Shown: one piece after another, positions 53,872-57,209 of the stretch
Position numbering within the stretch: position 1 is the stretch's first letter
Layout: the number at the start of each line of letters is the position of its first letter
NCBI RefSeq assembly: GCF_002252985.1
Contig: NZ_NHPJ01000131.1
Location: forward strand, 1-64,000
Direction of reading: 5' to 3'
Source: Halorubrum halodurans
Lineage (GTDB): Archaea > Halobacteriota > Halobacteria > Halobacteriales > Haloferacaceae
DNA: 64,000 bases
Made by a program: the position numbers and the translations under genes
Notes under the pieces: generated by a model
The model's database searches: none
Told to the model about the DNA's origin: nothing
What the model saw: the letters and a program-made list of their open reading frames with translations, nothing else

Positions 53872-53885
53872 CCGAACCGGTTCGG
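53872..53885. promoter_or_regulatory. Palindrome CCGAACCGGTTCGG, first site of the DUF2249-module regulon
   Basis: This 14-bp perfect palindrome ends 39 nt before ATG 53925, directly upstream of the position expected for BRE/TATA (a weak CGATACG at 53894-53900). It matches the sites at 54786 and 55392. Confidence 0.7.
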
Positions 53886-53924
53886 CTCAAGGCCGATACG
53901 CCCGGTCGCCCTCACGGCGATCGC

Positions 53925-54158
53925 ATGCCGACGCTCGACGTCCGCGAGATCCCGCCGATGAACCGCCACGATCGGATCCACGAGGTGTTCGGGGCCATGG
54001 AGCCCGGAGAGGCCCTGACGATCGTCAACGACCACGAGCCGAAGCCGCTGTACTACGAGATGGCCGCCGAGGTACCCTCCTTCGACGAGGACGGATACGA
54101 GGTGCGCCGGGAGGCGGAAGACGAGTTCGTCGCGACGTTCCCGAAGGTCGACGCGTAG
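53925..54158 (+). CDS. DUF2249 protein (copy 1)
   Basis: The 77-residue product begins MPTLDVREIPPMNRHDRIHE and continues FGAMEPGEALTIVNDHEPKPLYYEM, the DUF2249 core, an alpha/beta fold related to the TusA/SirA group. Many DUF2249 proteins sit near respiratory and nitrogen-oxide genes, but the activity is unknown. The conserved HEPKPLYY segment probably forms the binding face. It is monocistronic, with a palindromic site 39 nt upstream of the start. Confidence 0.85.
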   Translation: MPTLDVREIPPMNRHDRIHEVFGAMEPGEALTIVNDHEPKPLYYEMAAEVPSFDEDGYEVRREAEDEFVATFPKVDA

Positions 54159-54220
54159 CGACCGGCGGCGCGGCCGCCGGGTCTCGCTCCGGCCGGCGCG
54201 ACGGGCGTCGCCCCGCGACG

Positions 54221-54484
54221 CTACGCGGTCTCGAGTTCGAGGAGCATCCCCACCGTCCGGCCCGTCTCCCGGTTCCTCCGTCCGGACTCCGCGAGCGCGG
54301 CCGTCGGTCCCGCGATCAGCTCGTCGACCAGGCTCGCCGCGAGCGCGCGAACGGTCTCCCGCTGCTCGGCGGTGAGCGTCCCGCGCGACTCGAGCGCGGA
54401 GATCGCCGCCTCGCGCTCGCGCCGTTCGATCCGGGCCGCCCGCCGCCGGAGTCGACGGAGCCGGTCGCGGTCGGTCTCAGGCAT
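54221..54484 (-). CDS. GlutR C-terminal-dimerisation-like small protein
   Basis: The 87-residue product is Arg-rich and helical: RDRLRRLRRRAARIERRERE, then LTAEQRETVRALAASLVDELIAGPTAAL. The second part resembles the C-terminal dimerisation domain of glutamyl-tRNA reductase (HemA), but without the catalytic or NADP domains. It overlaps the preceding DUF2249 gene by 8 nt. A role linked to haem or to protein dimerisation is only a guess. Confidence 0.7.
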   Translation of the reverse strand: MPETDRDRLRRLRRRAARIERREREAAISALESRGTLTAEQRETVRALAASLVDELIAGPTAALAESGRRNRETGRTVGMLLELETA

Positions 54485-54749
54485 GGCGTATCTCGACGTA
54501 CCACACCTCGGAGCCGTTCTCCCGGTCCGCCGTCGCCTCGCGTTCGAACCCGCGGCGGTCGAGGACGGCGTACAGCGGTTCGGGCTCGAAGCCGTTCACC
54601 AGCAGGAGCGACTCGTCGGCCGGGAGCCTCTCGAGTTCCGCCACGATGTGCTCGAACGGTTCCCCGTCGACGTCGCGGACGTCGAGCGTCCGGTCCGCCT
54701 CGGGTCGGCCTCCGCCGGGTCGTCCCGTCTCGGATCGGTCCGTGCGCAT
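54477..54749 (-). CDS. DUF2249 protein (copy 2)
   Basis: The 90-residue product has a variable N terminus (about 20 residues) and the DUF2249 core TLDVRDVDGEPFEHIVAELE ... ESLLLVNGFEPEPLYAVLDRRGF and a final strand SEVWYVEIRHA. It heads the leftward two-gene unit with the GlutR-like protein. Its start lies 36 nt from the shared palindrome at 54786-54799. Confidence 0.85.
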   Translation of the reverse strand: MRTDRSETGRPGGGRPEADRTLDVRDVDGEPFEHIVAELERLPADESLLLVNGFEPEPLYAVLDRRGFEREATADRENGSEVWYVEIRHA

Positions 54750-54785
54750 ACCGGATCCCCGAACGGGACCGTGCTAGCCGTTCCC

Positions 54786-54799
54786 CCGAACGTCTTCGG
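54786..54799. promoter_or_regulatory. Shared palindrome CCGAACGTCTTCGG in the divergent promoter
   Basis: The site is centred in the 87-nt gap between divergent genes, 36 nt from ATG 54749 (minus) and 37 nt from ATG 54837 (plus). Outer arms CCGAA/TTCGG are perfect. One bound dimer could serve both promoters. Confidence 0.7.
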
Positions 54800-54836
54800 G
54801 AGGAGGCGTAGGTGGACCGGTGCCGTACCCTGCGGC

Positions 54837-55364
54837 ATGCGTGGGATCCCCTCACCGTTCGGCGGCGACGAGGCGTCCTTCGACGGCTACGACGAGTTCG
54901 TTCCCGACCGGCTGCCGGAGCCCGGTCCGTTCCTCGAGGGACACGACGTCCTGGAGGGACCGGACCACGCCGCGTTCCATCGGCTCACGCGGGCGCTCTT
55001 CGAGGAACGGACGGTGTACGACGTGACGTTCGACTACAACCTCGCTCGGCTGAACCTGGACGCCGGACATCCGGACGCGGGGTACCGCTACGCGAGGGAG
55101 TCCGGCGATCCGGCGACGCTGCGCGCGGAGTTCACGCCGACGACGCCCTTCTGTCCGCAGACGCACACGCTCACCGTCGGCTCGTTCAGGGCCTGGAACG
55201 GCCACACGGGCCGCCACGAGTACGACCTCGTCCGGGTGCGGGCGGCCCCGACGCACGACCGGAGCGCCGCGATCAACGAGCGGCTCGCCGCGGCCGAGGA
55301 GGCGTTCCGCGAGACGGGGGACGCGACGGTCGCGTCGACCGATCCGAACGACGCGCCGTCTTGA
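54837..55364 (+). CDS. Unknown Cys-containing protein of the DUF2249 module
   Basis: The 175-residue product starts MRGIPSPFGGDEASFDGYDE and has an alpha/beta core with FTPTTPFCPQTHTLTVGSF and YDLVRVRAAPTHDRSAAINERL. The CPQTH motif in a loop recalls DUF59/iron-sulfur-assembly-type proteins that use a single loop cysteine, but I cannot confirm that. No signal peptide or membrane segment is visible. It is divergent from the leftward pair and shares its palindromic site. Confidence 0.7.
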   Translation: MRGIPSPFGGDEASFDGYDEFVPDRLPEPGPFLEGHDVLEGPDHAAFHRLTRALFEERTVYDVTFDYNLARLNLDAGHPDAGYRYARESGDPATLRAEFTPTTPFCPQTHTLTVGSFRAWNGHTGRHEYDLVRVRAAPTHDRSAAINERLAAAEEAFRETGDATVASTDPNDAPS

Positions 55365-55391
55365 GCCCGGACGCCCGCGGTCGGGGCGGAC

Positions 55392-55405
55392 CGGAACATC
55401 TTCGG
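55392..55405. promoter_or_regulatory. Palindrome CGGAACATCTTCGG, third site of the module
   Basis: This near-palindrome ends 37 nt before ATG 55443, the same spacing as the other two sites. Positions 3-6 and 10-14 (GAAC, TTCGG) are shared with them. Confidence 0.65.
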
Positions 55406-55442
55406 GTGAACGCACTGGTGTGTCGACGCCGTACCGCGGGAC

Positions 55443-55829
55443 ATGCCCGACGTCACCGCGATCCTCGACCGGACGGGCGTCCCGGCGGACCGGGAGCGCG
55501 AGACGCTCGACGCGCGGGACCTCCCGCCGCCGCGGCCGCTCAGGGACACCCTGGAGCGGCTCGCGGCGCTCGACGACGACGTCGCGTTGATCCAGTTCAA
55601 CGACCGCCGGCCGCGGCACCTCTACCCGCGGCTGGACGACCGGGGGTACCGCCACGAGACCGTCGAGGACGGCGGGACGGTCGTGACCGCGATCTGGACC
55701 GACCGGGACGCGGACGGATCGGCGGCGGCCGGGGGCGACTCGACCGCCGGCGACGACGTGCCGGCCGGAGACGACCCGGCCGCCGGCGACGACCCGACCG
55801 ACGGGACGAACCGGACGGGAGAGAGGTGA
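55443..55829 (+). CDS. DUF2249 protein (copy 3) with repetitive acidic tail
   Basis: The 128-residue product has the DUF2249 core: ERETLDARDLPPPRPLRDTL, LAALDDDVALIQFNDRRPRHLYPRL and a final strand TVVTAIWTD. The conserved HEPxPLYY segment is altered to DRRPRHLYP, with Arg/His replacing the acidic residue. After residue 90 a disordered tail repeats AGDD-type units. It is 3 nt before the 12-helix membrane protein gene and forms an operon with it. Confidence 0.82.
   Translation: MPDVTAILDRTGVPADRERETLDARDLPPPRPLRDTLERLAALDDDVALIQFNDRRPRHLYPRLDDRGYRHETVEDGGTVVTAIWTDRDADGSAAAGGDSTAGDDVPAGDDPAAGDDPTDGTNRTGER
55823..55829 (+). promoter_or_regulatory. Shine-Dalgarno GAGGTGA fixing a GTG start
   Basis: GAGGTGA complements the 16S rRNA 3' end and lies 3 nt before GTG 55833. 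It overlaps the stop of the upstream gene. It favours GTG 55833 over ATG 55878, where no such signal is seen. Confidence 0.55.
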
Positions 55830-55832
55830 CGC

Positions 55833-57209
55833 GTGGGCGCCGTACCACGGGGGATCGACGCGGACCGGCGGCCCCCGATGACGGTCCCGTTGCGCCACTT
55901 CCTCGTCGCGCTCGCGCTGCTCGTCGCGGGCGTCGTGGTCGGCGCGGGGGCGTCCGCCGGCGTGGCTCCCGGACTCGCTCGGCTGGCGCACCTCCACCTC
56001 CTCCTGGCCGGCTGGGTCTGCGTCACGATCATGGGCGCGATGACGCAGTTCGTCCCGGTCTGGTCGGGCGTCCCGCTCCACTCGCGCCGGCTCGCGGACG
56101 CCCAGCTCGCGCTCGTCGTCGTGGGCGTGGCCGGGATCGCCGGGGGGCTCCTCCTCGCCCGCCCGGCGTGGGTCGCCCCGTTCGGGCTCGCGGCGCTCGC
56201 CGGCTTCTGGACGTTCGCGTACAACGTCGGCCGGACGCTCCGGCCGGTCGAGCGCTACGACGTCACCGAGCGCCACTTCCTCGTCGCGCTCGGGTTCGTC
56301 CTCGCGCTGTCCCTGCTCGGCGTCCTCCTCGCGGTCGGGTTCACCACGCCGGCGTTCGCCCGAGTCGGCGTCGAGCGAACGGGGGCGGTCGGGGCGCACG
56401 CGACCGTCGCGGTCTTCGGCGCGGTCCTGACGACCGTGTACGGAGCCCTCTACCAGCTGGCGACGATGTTCACGCAGACGTCGCTCCGCGGGATCGACCA
56501 CGGCCTTCGGCGCGTCGAGGAGGTCGCCCATCCCGTCGGCGTCGTCCTCCTCGCGATCGGCCGGCTCGTCGCGAACGCACCGGTCGCGCGGACGGGCGGG
56601 GTACTCGTGGTCGCGGCGGCCGTCGCGGTCTGTGTCGTCCTCGCGCGGCGGCTGTCGGAGACGCGCGTGGATCCGACGCCGATGCACGCGCGGTACGCGG
56701 TCTTCGTCGCCGCGCTCGGGCTGTGGGCGCTCCTCGCGCTGCCGGCGTGGGCGGCCGACCCGCTGGCCCGCGAGCACCTCCTCGGGGCCGCGGGCGCCGG
56801 CCACCTGCTCGTGCTCGGCGCGATCGGGTTCGTCGTGTTCGGGACGCTCTACCACGTCGTCCCGTTCGTGGTGTGGGTCCACCGGTACAGCGACCGGCTG
56901 GGCGTCGAGCCGGTGCCGATGGTCGACGACCTCTACGACGACCGGCTCGCCGCCGTCGACGGGGTCCTGCTGTGCGTCGGGACGGCGCTGGTCGTCGGGG
57001 CGGACCTGCTCGGGATCGGCGGCGTCGCGTCGGCCCTCGGCGGGCTGTCGGTCGCGGCCGGGGTCGGCGCGTTCGTCCTCAACGTCCTCTCGGTGGTCGT
57101 CCGCCACGGAACGCGACCGATCGATCGGCTCCTCCTCGGATCGCTGTCGCCCCGGCGGGCGGCCGGCGACGATCCGGTCGACCCCGGCGACGCCTCCGGC
57201 GACGGGTGA
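55833..57209 (+). CDS. 12-helix membrane protein resembling haem-copper oxidase subunit I relatives
   Basis: The 458-residue product has twelve predicted helices with conserved histidines inside them: AHLHLLLAGWVCVTIMGAM (helix 2), VGAHATVAVFGAVLTTVYGAL (helix 6) and GHLLVLGAIGFVVFGTLYHV (helix 10). Histidines placed in helices 2, 6 and 10 are typical of cbb3/NOR-like subunit I families, so a haem or copper role is plausible, but I see no complete catalytic set. The start is GTG 55833 by its Shine-Dalgarno; ATG 55878 is the alternative. It is co-transcribed with the third DUF2249 gene. Confidence 0.72.
   Translation: MGAVPRGIDADRRPPMTVPLRHFLVALALLVAGVVVGAGASAGVAPGLARLAHLHLLLAGWVCVTIMGAMTQFVPVWSGVPLHSRRLADAQLALVVVGVAGIAGGLLLARPAWVAPFGLAALAGFWTFAYNVGRTLRPVERYDVTERHFLVALGFVLALSLLGVLLAVGFTTPAFARVGVERTGAVGAHATVAVFGAVLTTVYGALYQLATMFTQTSLRGIDHGLRRVEEVAHPVGVVLLAIGRLVANAPVARTGGVLVVAAAVAVCVVLARRLSETRVDPTPMHARYAVFVAALGLWALLALPAWAADPLAREHLLGAAGAGHLLVLGAIGFVVFGTLYHVVPFVVWVHRYSDRLGVEPVPMVDDLYDDRLAAVDGVLLCVGTALVVGADLLGIGGVASALGGLSVAAGVGAFVLNVLSVVVRHGTRPIDRLLLGSLSPRRAAGDDPVDPGDASGDG

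Follow-up and report, generated by a model that had tools for sequence, protein, structure and literature searches.

Three palindromes of the form CCGAA-N4-TTCGG, found in a 64-kb stretch of Halorubrum halodurans DNA (hereafter the window, which is contig C6 of a host genome of 3.3 Mb in 143 contigs), very probably act as operators of a haloarchaeal denitrification or low-oxygen regulon, in which a Bat-type HTH_10 activator would switch on leaderless promoters. The first palindrome, CCGAACCGGTTCGG (53872..53885), ends 39 nt before ATG 53925. The second, CCGAACGTCTTCGG (54786..54799), lies 37 nt from ATG 54837 on the plus strand and also 36 nt from the divergent ATG 54749 on the minus strand, and so faces both directions. 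The third, CGGAACATCTTCGG (55392..55405), which carries one mismatch, ends 37 nt before ATG 55443. These putative operators, to which no strand is assigned, had been described in an earlier note on this DNA, and its sequences, coordinates and distances, including the double role of the middle copy, are exact. The pattern CSGAACNNNTTCGG matches only these three places in the 64-kb window, where 0.27 matches are expected; in 100 shuffles, the count never came up to that of the real sequence. Downstream of the sites, a T-A pair at -28/-27 can be read in the sequence before ATG 53925 (53897-53898), while the T-A at the same distance before 54837 (54809..54810, plus strand) is the main TATA remnant there and falls in columns conserved among orthologues. 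A CCGTACC string before 54837 (54823..54829, plus strand) holds the A at -10 that column conservation marks, and an identical string is present at 55429-55435, before 55443.

Three of the genes behind these sites encode DUF2249 proteins (PF10006, cut-off 29.5 bits), namely a 77-aa protein (53925..54158, plus strand, 81.1 bits), a 90-aa protein divergent from 54837 (54477..54749, minus strand, 54.3 bits) and a 128-aa protein with a low-complexity C-terminal tail (55443..55829, plus strand, 52.4 bits). The end of the 54749 gene is overlapped by a gene for a small protein with a GlutR_dimer-like domain (54221..54484, minus strand; PF00745 32.9 bits, cut-off 22.9), and one transcript is therefore expected for both; homologues of the GlutR-like protein are repeatedly found beside a DUF2249 gene. 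On the other side of the middle palindrome lies a gene for a conserved Cys protein of 175 aa with a FCPQTHTLTIGSFRAWNG-type core (54837..55364, plus strand), which has no match in Pfam or NCBIfam. Its family is strongly conserved and present in 104 of the 170 family genomes, and served as the marker in the co-occurrence comparisons below. The FCPQ and FRAWNG core is invariant in this protein and its relatives.

The last gene encodes a COX1-like multi-helix membrane protein with 12 TM helices (55833..57209, plus strand; PF00115 23.6 bits, below the cut-off). In its homologues, the reading frame begins 15 codons ahead of the position equivalent to ATG 55878 (MTVPL), and the corresponding codon in the window, GTG 55833, is probably the true start. 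As this GTG immediately follows the stop of 55443, the 12-TM gene likely shares the 55392 promoter and is probably co-transcribed with 55443. Homologues elsewhere often carry their own site at 36 nt, and no operator of its own was found at the right place for the 12-TM gene within the window; the half-site at 55806-55819 (ACGAACCGGACGGG) was dropped as a candidate, being mis-spaced for both possible starts. The 55443 protein has a repetitive GDD/PAG-rich tail (window 55700-55829); at this position, many homologous 12-TM genes carry a promoter of their own. The proposal that one common factor controls all of these genes, for the DUF2249 proteins, the GlutR-like protein, the Cys protein and the 12-TM protein, is supported as far as the shared operator is concerned, with the 12-TM gene probably served through the 55392 promoter.

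The site and its distance from the start codon are conserved across haloarchaea. When 22 orthologous 54837 promoters were aligned by their ATG, positions -50 to -37 gave CGAACATNTNCGGG and were almost invariant in most columns, the upstream flank was unconserved, and the other conserved positions were A at -33, TA at -28/-27, C at -13, A at -10 and T at -1. A leaderless promoter whose TATA box is weak would be expected to look like this. The alignment was replicated with 51 orthologous 54837 promoters, taken from named genomes that belong to many genera, in which the site was kept at exactly the same position in 45 and was free of mismatches in 20. For the 53925 orthologues, a CGAAN4TTCG-like site was found 38-40 nt before the ATG in all 30 loci, the window's own included, and most homologues of 54749, 55443 and the 12-TM gene have a site at 36-37 nt (both in a 15-mer register), with the site of the 54749 orthologues lying at 36 nt.

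The spacing was also evident when all open reading frames (ORFs) downstream of sites were counted with a matrix trained on 54837 promoters only. ORF starts peaked at 36 nt (55 starts) in 20 clusters together with this genome, and the single-gap peak reached 152 in 80 named loci, which span Halorubrum, Haloferax, Halobellus, Haloarcula, Natrinema, Natrialba, Natronomonas, Halococcus and others. Of the 417 ORF starts that follow a site in the latter set, 246 fell in the 4-nt window of 35-38 nt, whereas column-permuted matrices giving the same number of sites placed only 4-14 starts there, which contradicts a random placement of the motif. The promoter of 54837 itself contributes to this peak, because the loci were chosen for holding that gene; the other gene families in the census are independent of the choice. 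A pattern search in 52 Halorubrum genomes, with the gap left free between 22 and 52 nt, likewise gave one gap that exceeded every other. The fixed distance and the single-gap peak in orthologous promoters bear out the earlier placement of the site at the activator position upstream of a weak TATA box. Two-way use of one site by divergent genes was seen at 18 places in the examined loci, some of which are mutual copies. Among the named loci L291-L370, cupin, ThiS-like and PaaB-like families, the start of an HMA-domain P-type ATPase gene and a COX1-family oxidase were also found repeatedly behind the motif, at a distance of about 35-37 nt, which suggests a wider low-oxygen regulon.

Sites of the same kind are present elsewhere in the host genome, which was scanned by pattern searches and in selected stretches, a procedure by which weaker regulon members may be missed. 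Perfect CCGAANNNNTTCGG occurs at 12 places in the 3.3-Mb genome, and two of the ten other perfect places lie on contig C29, 42 and 36 nt before DUF2249 genes. With up to one mismatch, CCGAANNNNTTCGG is found at 222 places compared with 62 for the reversed control (3.6 times), and because the one-mismatch pattern is so much commoner than its control, near matches alone are weak evidence. Contig C29 encodes a copper nitrite reductase, NirK (TIGR02376 358.6 bits), as well as a molybdopterin NarG/NarH-type pair. Sites at or near the canonical distance on this contig precede paralogues of the window's Cys protein (4036, minus strand) and 12-TM gene, two DUF2249 genes (2236 and 7578), a DtxR-like gene (7024) and a peroxiredoxin gene (7933). 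The DtxR-like protein (C29:7024-7506; L046) matches PF01325 and has a Cys-rich N-terminus, VCGCTRPTAC; in some Halorubrum its gene is conserved next to the cluster. The gene norB on contig C24 (PF22085 176 bits) carries CGAACATGTTGG within the 36-37 nt spacing, and a ThiS-like gene (contig C69) and a small conserved gene (contig C67) have sites at 36-37 nt; in other genera, sequence-matched relatives of the latter two again have the motif.

Among the matching genome sites (norB, the DUF2249 paralogues and the DtxR-like gene), most are on contig C29, together with nirK and narGH. Sites had been anticipated before nitrite and NO reductase genes, which holds for norB, at canonical spacing, but not for nirK (C29:9046), where a site at the canonical distance is absent and the only matches found, about 170-200 nt upstream, are weak. 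With nirK and narGH on the site-rich contig C29, a site before norB and a published motif in a relative, the link between the site regulon and denitrification suggested in the earlier note is well supported, by linkage here and by the published work.

That work concerns Haloferax mediterranei, for which one study reports a denitrification motif, CGAAYATDKTYG, in the promoters of nar, nirK, nor and nos, and a reduced activity of the nos and nor promoters when the motif is mutated (PMC10062603). A similar motif is cited there for six genera. According to a second study, the motif precedes genes induced under denitrification, which include two DUF2249 genes and a bacterioopsin-activator gene (PMC11218638). 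The motif (e.g., CGAACATGTTCG) and the window sites are both semi-palindromes of the CGAAC-N2-GTTCG type with a 2-bp spacer, so that the impression of a shorter spacer in the window has to be corrected (PMC10062603). Each window site has two inverted CGAAC-type arms and a 2-bp spacer, and since both are equal to those of CGAAYATDKTYG, the window sites are operators of that kind. Compared by eye with the strict 12-letter CGAAYATDKTYG consensus, each window site departs at two positions (53872 at 6-7, 54786 at 6 and 8, and 55392 at 1 and 8); orthologous sites match the consensus better than the window sites do, and orthologous promoters include exact CGAACATGTTCG-type sites. The motif is therefore one already published in H. 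mediterranei, and what is found here is a new operon set of a known kind of regulon.

As for the protein that binds these sites, the balance of evidence leans towards a short Bat-type HTH_10 protein, encoded at C29:18127-18765, with a paralogue at C69:8178-8792. Its HTH_10 domain is clear (PF04967 54 bits, cut-off 23.1), and its GAF/HTH_10-associated BAT domain scores below the cut-off (PF15915 19.0 bits, cut-off 25.8). The regulator is present in 98 of the 104 genomes with the 54837 marker gene, and in 66 of 67 outside Halorubrum (Fisher p about 1e-18 for co-occurrence, uncorrected for phylogeny). In 12 of the 20 clusters examined, its gene falls inside the same 20 kb, and in all 12 the motif lies within 200 nt upstream of the regulator gene, mostly at 38-48 nt. 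Motif-like sites are also present in the promoter of the gene at C29:18127-18765, and the paralogue on C69 has only a weak motif match, at 91 nt. Besides the canonical site, loci L262, L267 and L269 carry a second CGAA-type palindrome 2-9 nt before the start of the Bat-type gene, which would suit negative autoregulation. No Bat-type match at E <= 1e-35 was found in the well-assembled Halorubrum genomes G110, G118 and G142, which keep the marker and the sites, and the regulator is present in 16 genomes that have neither the marker nor a 53925-type DUF2249 gene.

It is rather unlikely that the same operator and regulon are instead governed by NarO or a DmsR-type Cys regulator. In favour of such a protein, the denitrification contig encodes two HTH_10 proteins with DmsR_N-like N-termini, one of them just upstream of nar, and NarO has been described as activating denitrification genes in H. 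volcanii, while a similar motif is cited for several genera (PMC10062603, citing Hattori 2016). However, with one of these two C29 proteins as the query, NarO/DmsR-type homologues were detected in 27 of 170 genomes (E <= 1e-15), compared with 104 for the marker, and outside Halorubrum they showed no significant association. H. mediterranei, moreover, uses the motif although NarO is reported to be absent from it (PMC10062603). The threshold of E <= 1e-15 may miss divergent NarO proteins, as Haloferax genomes gave no match although NarO was described in that genus, and for this reason the likelihood of NarO was only lowered. With this caveat, a NarO/DmsR-type protein was set aside as the general binder, its homologues being distributed far more narrowly than the sites, and the assignment to NarO in the earlier note is not supported in that form. 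The Bat-type HTH_10 regulator is the better candidate.

It is very improbable that the same operator is bound by the Cys-rich DtxR-like protein (C29:7024-7506), which would then respond to iron or NO and act as a repressor or an activator. Its gene sits between the 12-TM and DUF2249 paralogues and has the motif at 37 nt, as is also the case in 11 named loci for the motif, but close orthologues (over 240 bits) are confined to about ten Halorubrum genomes, far fewer than have the sites; too narrowly distributed for a general binder, the protein looks like a member of the regulon. Finally, the view that the sites are not operators but structural elements or CGAA/TTCG-rich palindromes that arose by chance is hardly credible, since the abundance of such palindromes in this GC-rich genome (the 222 places counted above), most of the near matches lying away from promoters, is outweighed by the fixed spacing, the conservation across genera and the shuffle and permuted-matrix controls.

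Taken together, sequence, position, conservation, gene families, linkage and co-occurrence, which form the basis of this analysis, are consistent with the following mechanism for the Bat-type reading. Each site would lie at about -50 to -37, centred near -44, immediately 5' of a very weak BRE/TATA region, with the transcript starting at or beside the ATG. A dimeric activator bound to the site would recruit TFB/TBP to a promoter that might otherwise be almost silent, and activation rather than repression would be the mode of control in H. halodurans. As the site is two-fold symmetric, the 54786 copy could drive transcription equally well in both directions, from the 54749-54484 promoter and from the 54837 promoter. 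The products, i.e., three DUF2249 proteins and the GlutR-like, Cys and COX1-like proteins, may be accessory, sensing or redox proteins serving nitrite or NO respiration or detoxification, and the activator would most likely be the Bat-type HTH_10 protein at C29:18127-18765 or its paralogue at C69:8178-8792.

In a broader and more tentative picture, which we consider possible but somewhat short of probable, a haloarchaea-wide Fnr-like low-oxygen/NO regulon might be run by a short Bat-type HTH_10 subfamily through a fixed palindrome at -44, leaderless promoters and two-way sites, with feedback in some species through a second site over the start of the regulator gene itself, and with DUF2249, Cys and COX1-like proteins rather than the reductases as its most conserved core. 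The fixed spacing and cross-genus conservation provide a portable operator definition, narrow the core targets down to a few genes of unknown function, and point to one testable regulator other than the assumed NarO. The window is also a compact test bed, as one of its palindromes lies between two divergent promoters.

Several known systems resemble the one proposed here. In Bat (bacterioopsin activator) promoters of haloarchaea, an activator site lies directly upstream of a weak TATA region, and its sequence differs from the window palindromes. The activator site adjoining a weak TATA box and the HTH_10 domain of the candidate regulator are shared with this system, whereas the candidate differs from Bat-type regulators in being short (213 aa), in its sub-threshold BAT match and in that Pfam detected neither a PAS nor a GAF domain in it. 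Relative to H. mediterranei, where the sites are reported 66-79 nt from the ATG instead of the fixed 36-39 nt found here, the strict spacing, the operons of the 54837 Cys protein, the 12-TM protein and the GlutR-like protein, and the two-way site are new; the available parts of PMC10062603 and PMC11218638 contain no description of these operons or of a two-way site, and the latter, a 2024 study, called the H. mediterranei regulatory network completely unknown. The NarO regulon of Haloferax volcanii is alike in its low-oxygen activation of denitrification genes and its HTH_10-type regulator (PMC10062603, PMC11218638, for the work of Hattori et al. 2016), and unlike in that NarO-type homologues do not track the sites across genera. 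The Thermus drpAB genes offer a further parallel, as a DUF2249 protein is induced with nitrate respiration, although that system is bacterial and is controlled by another regulator, DnrT (PMC6282519).
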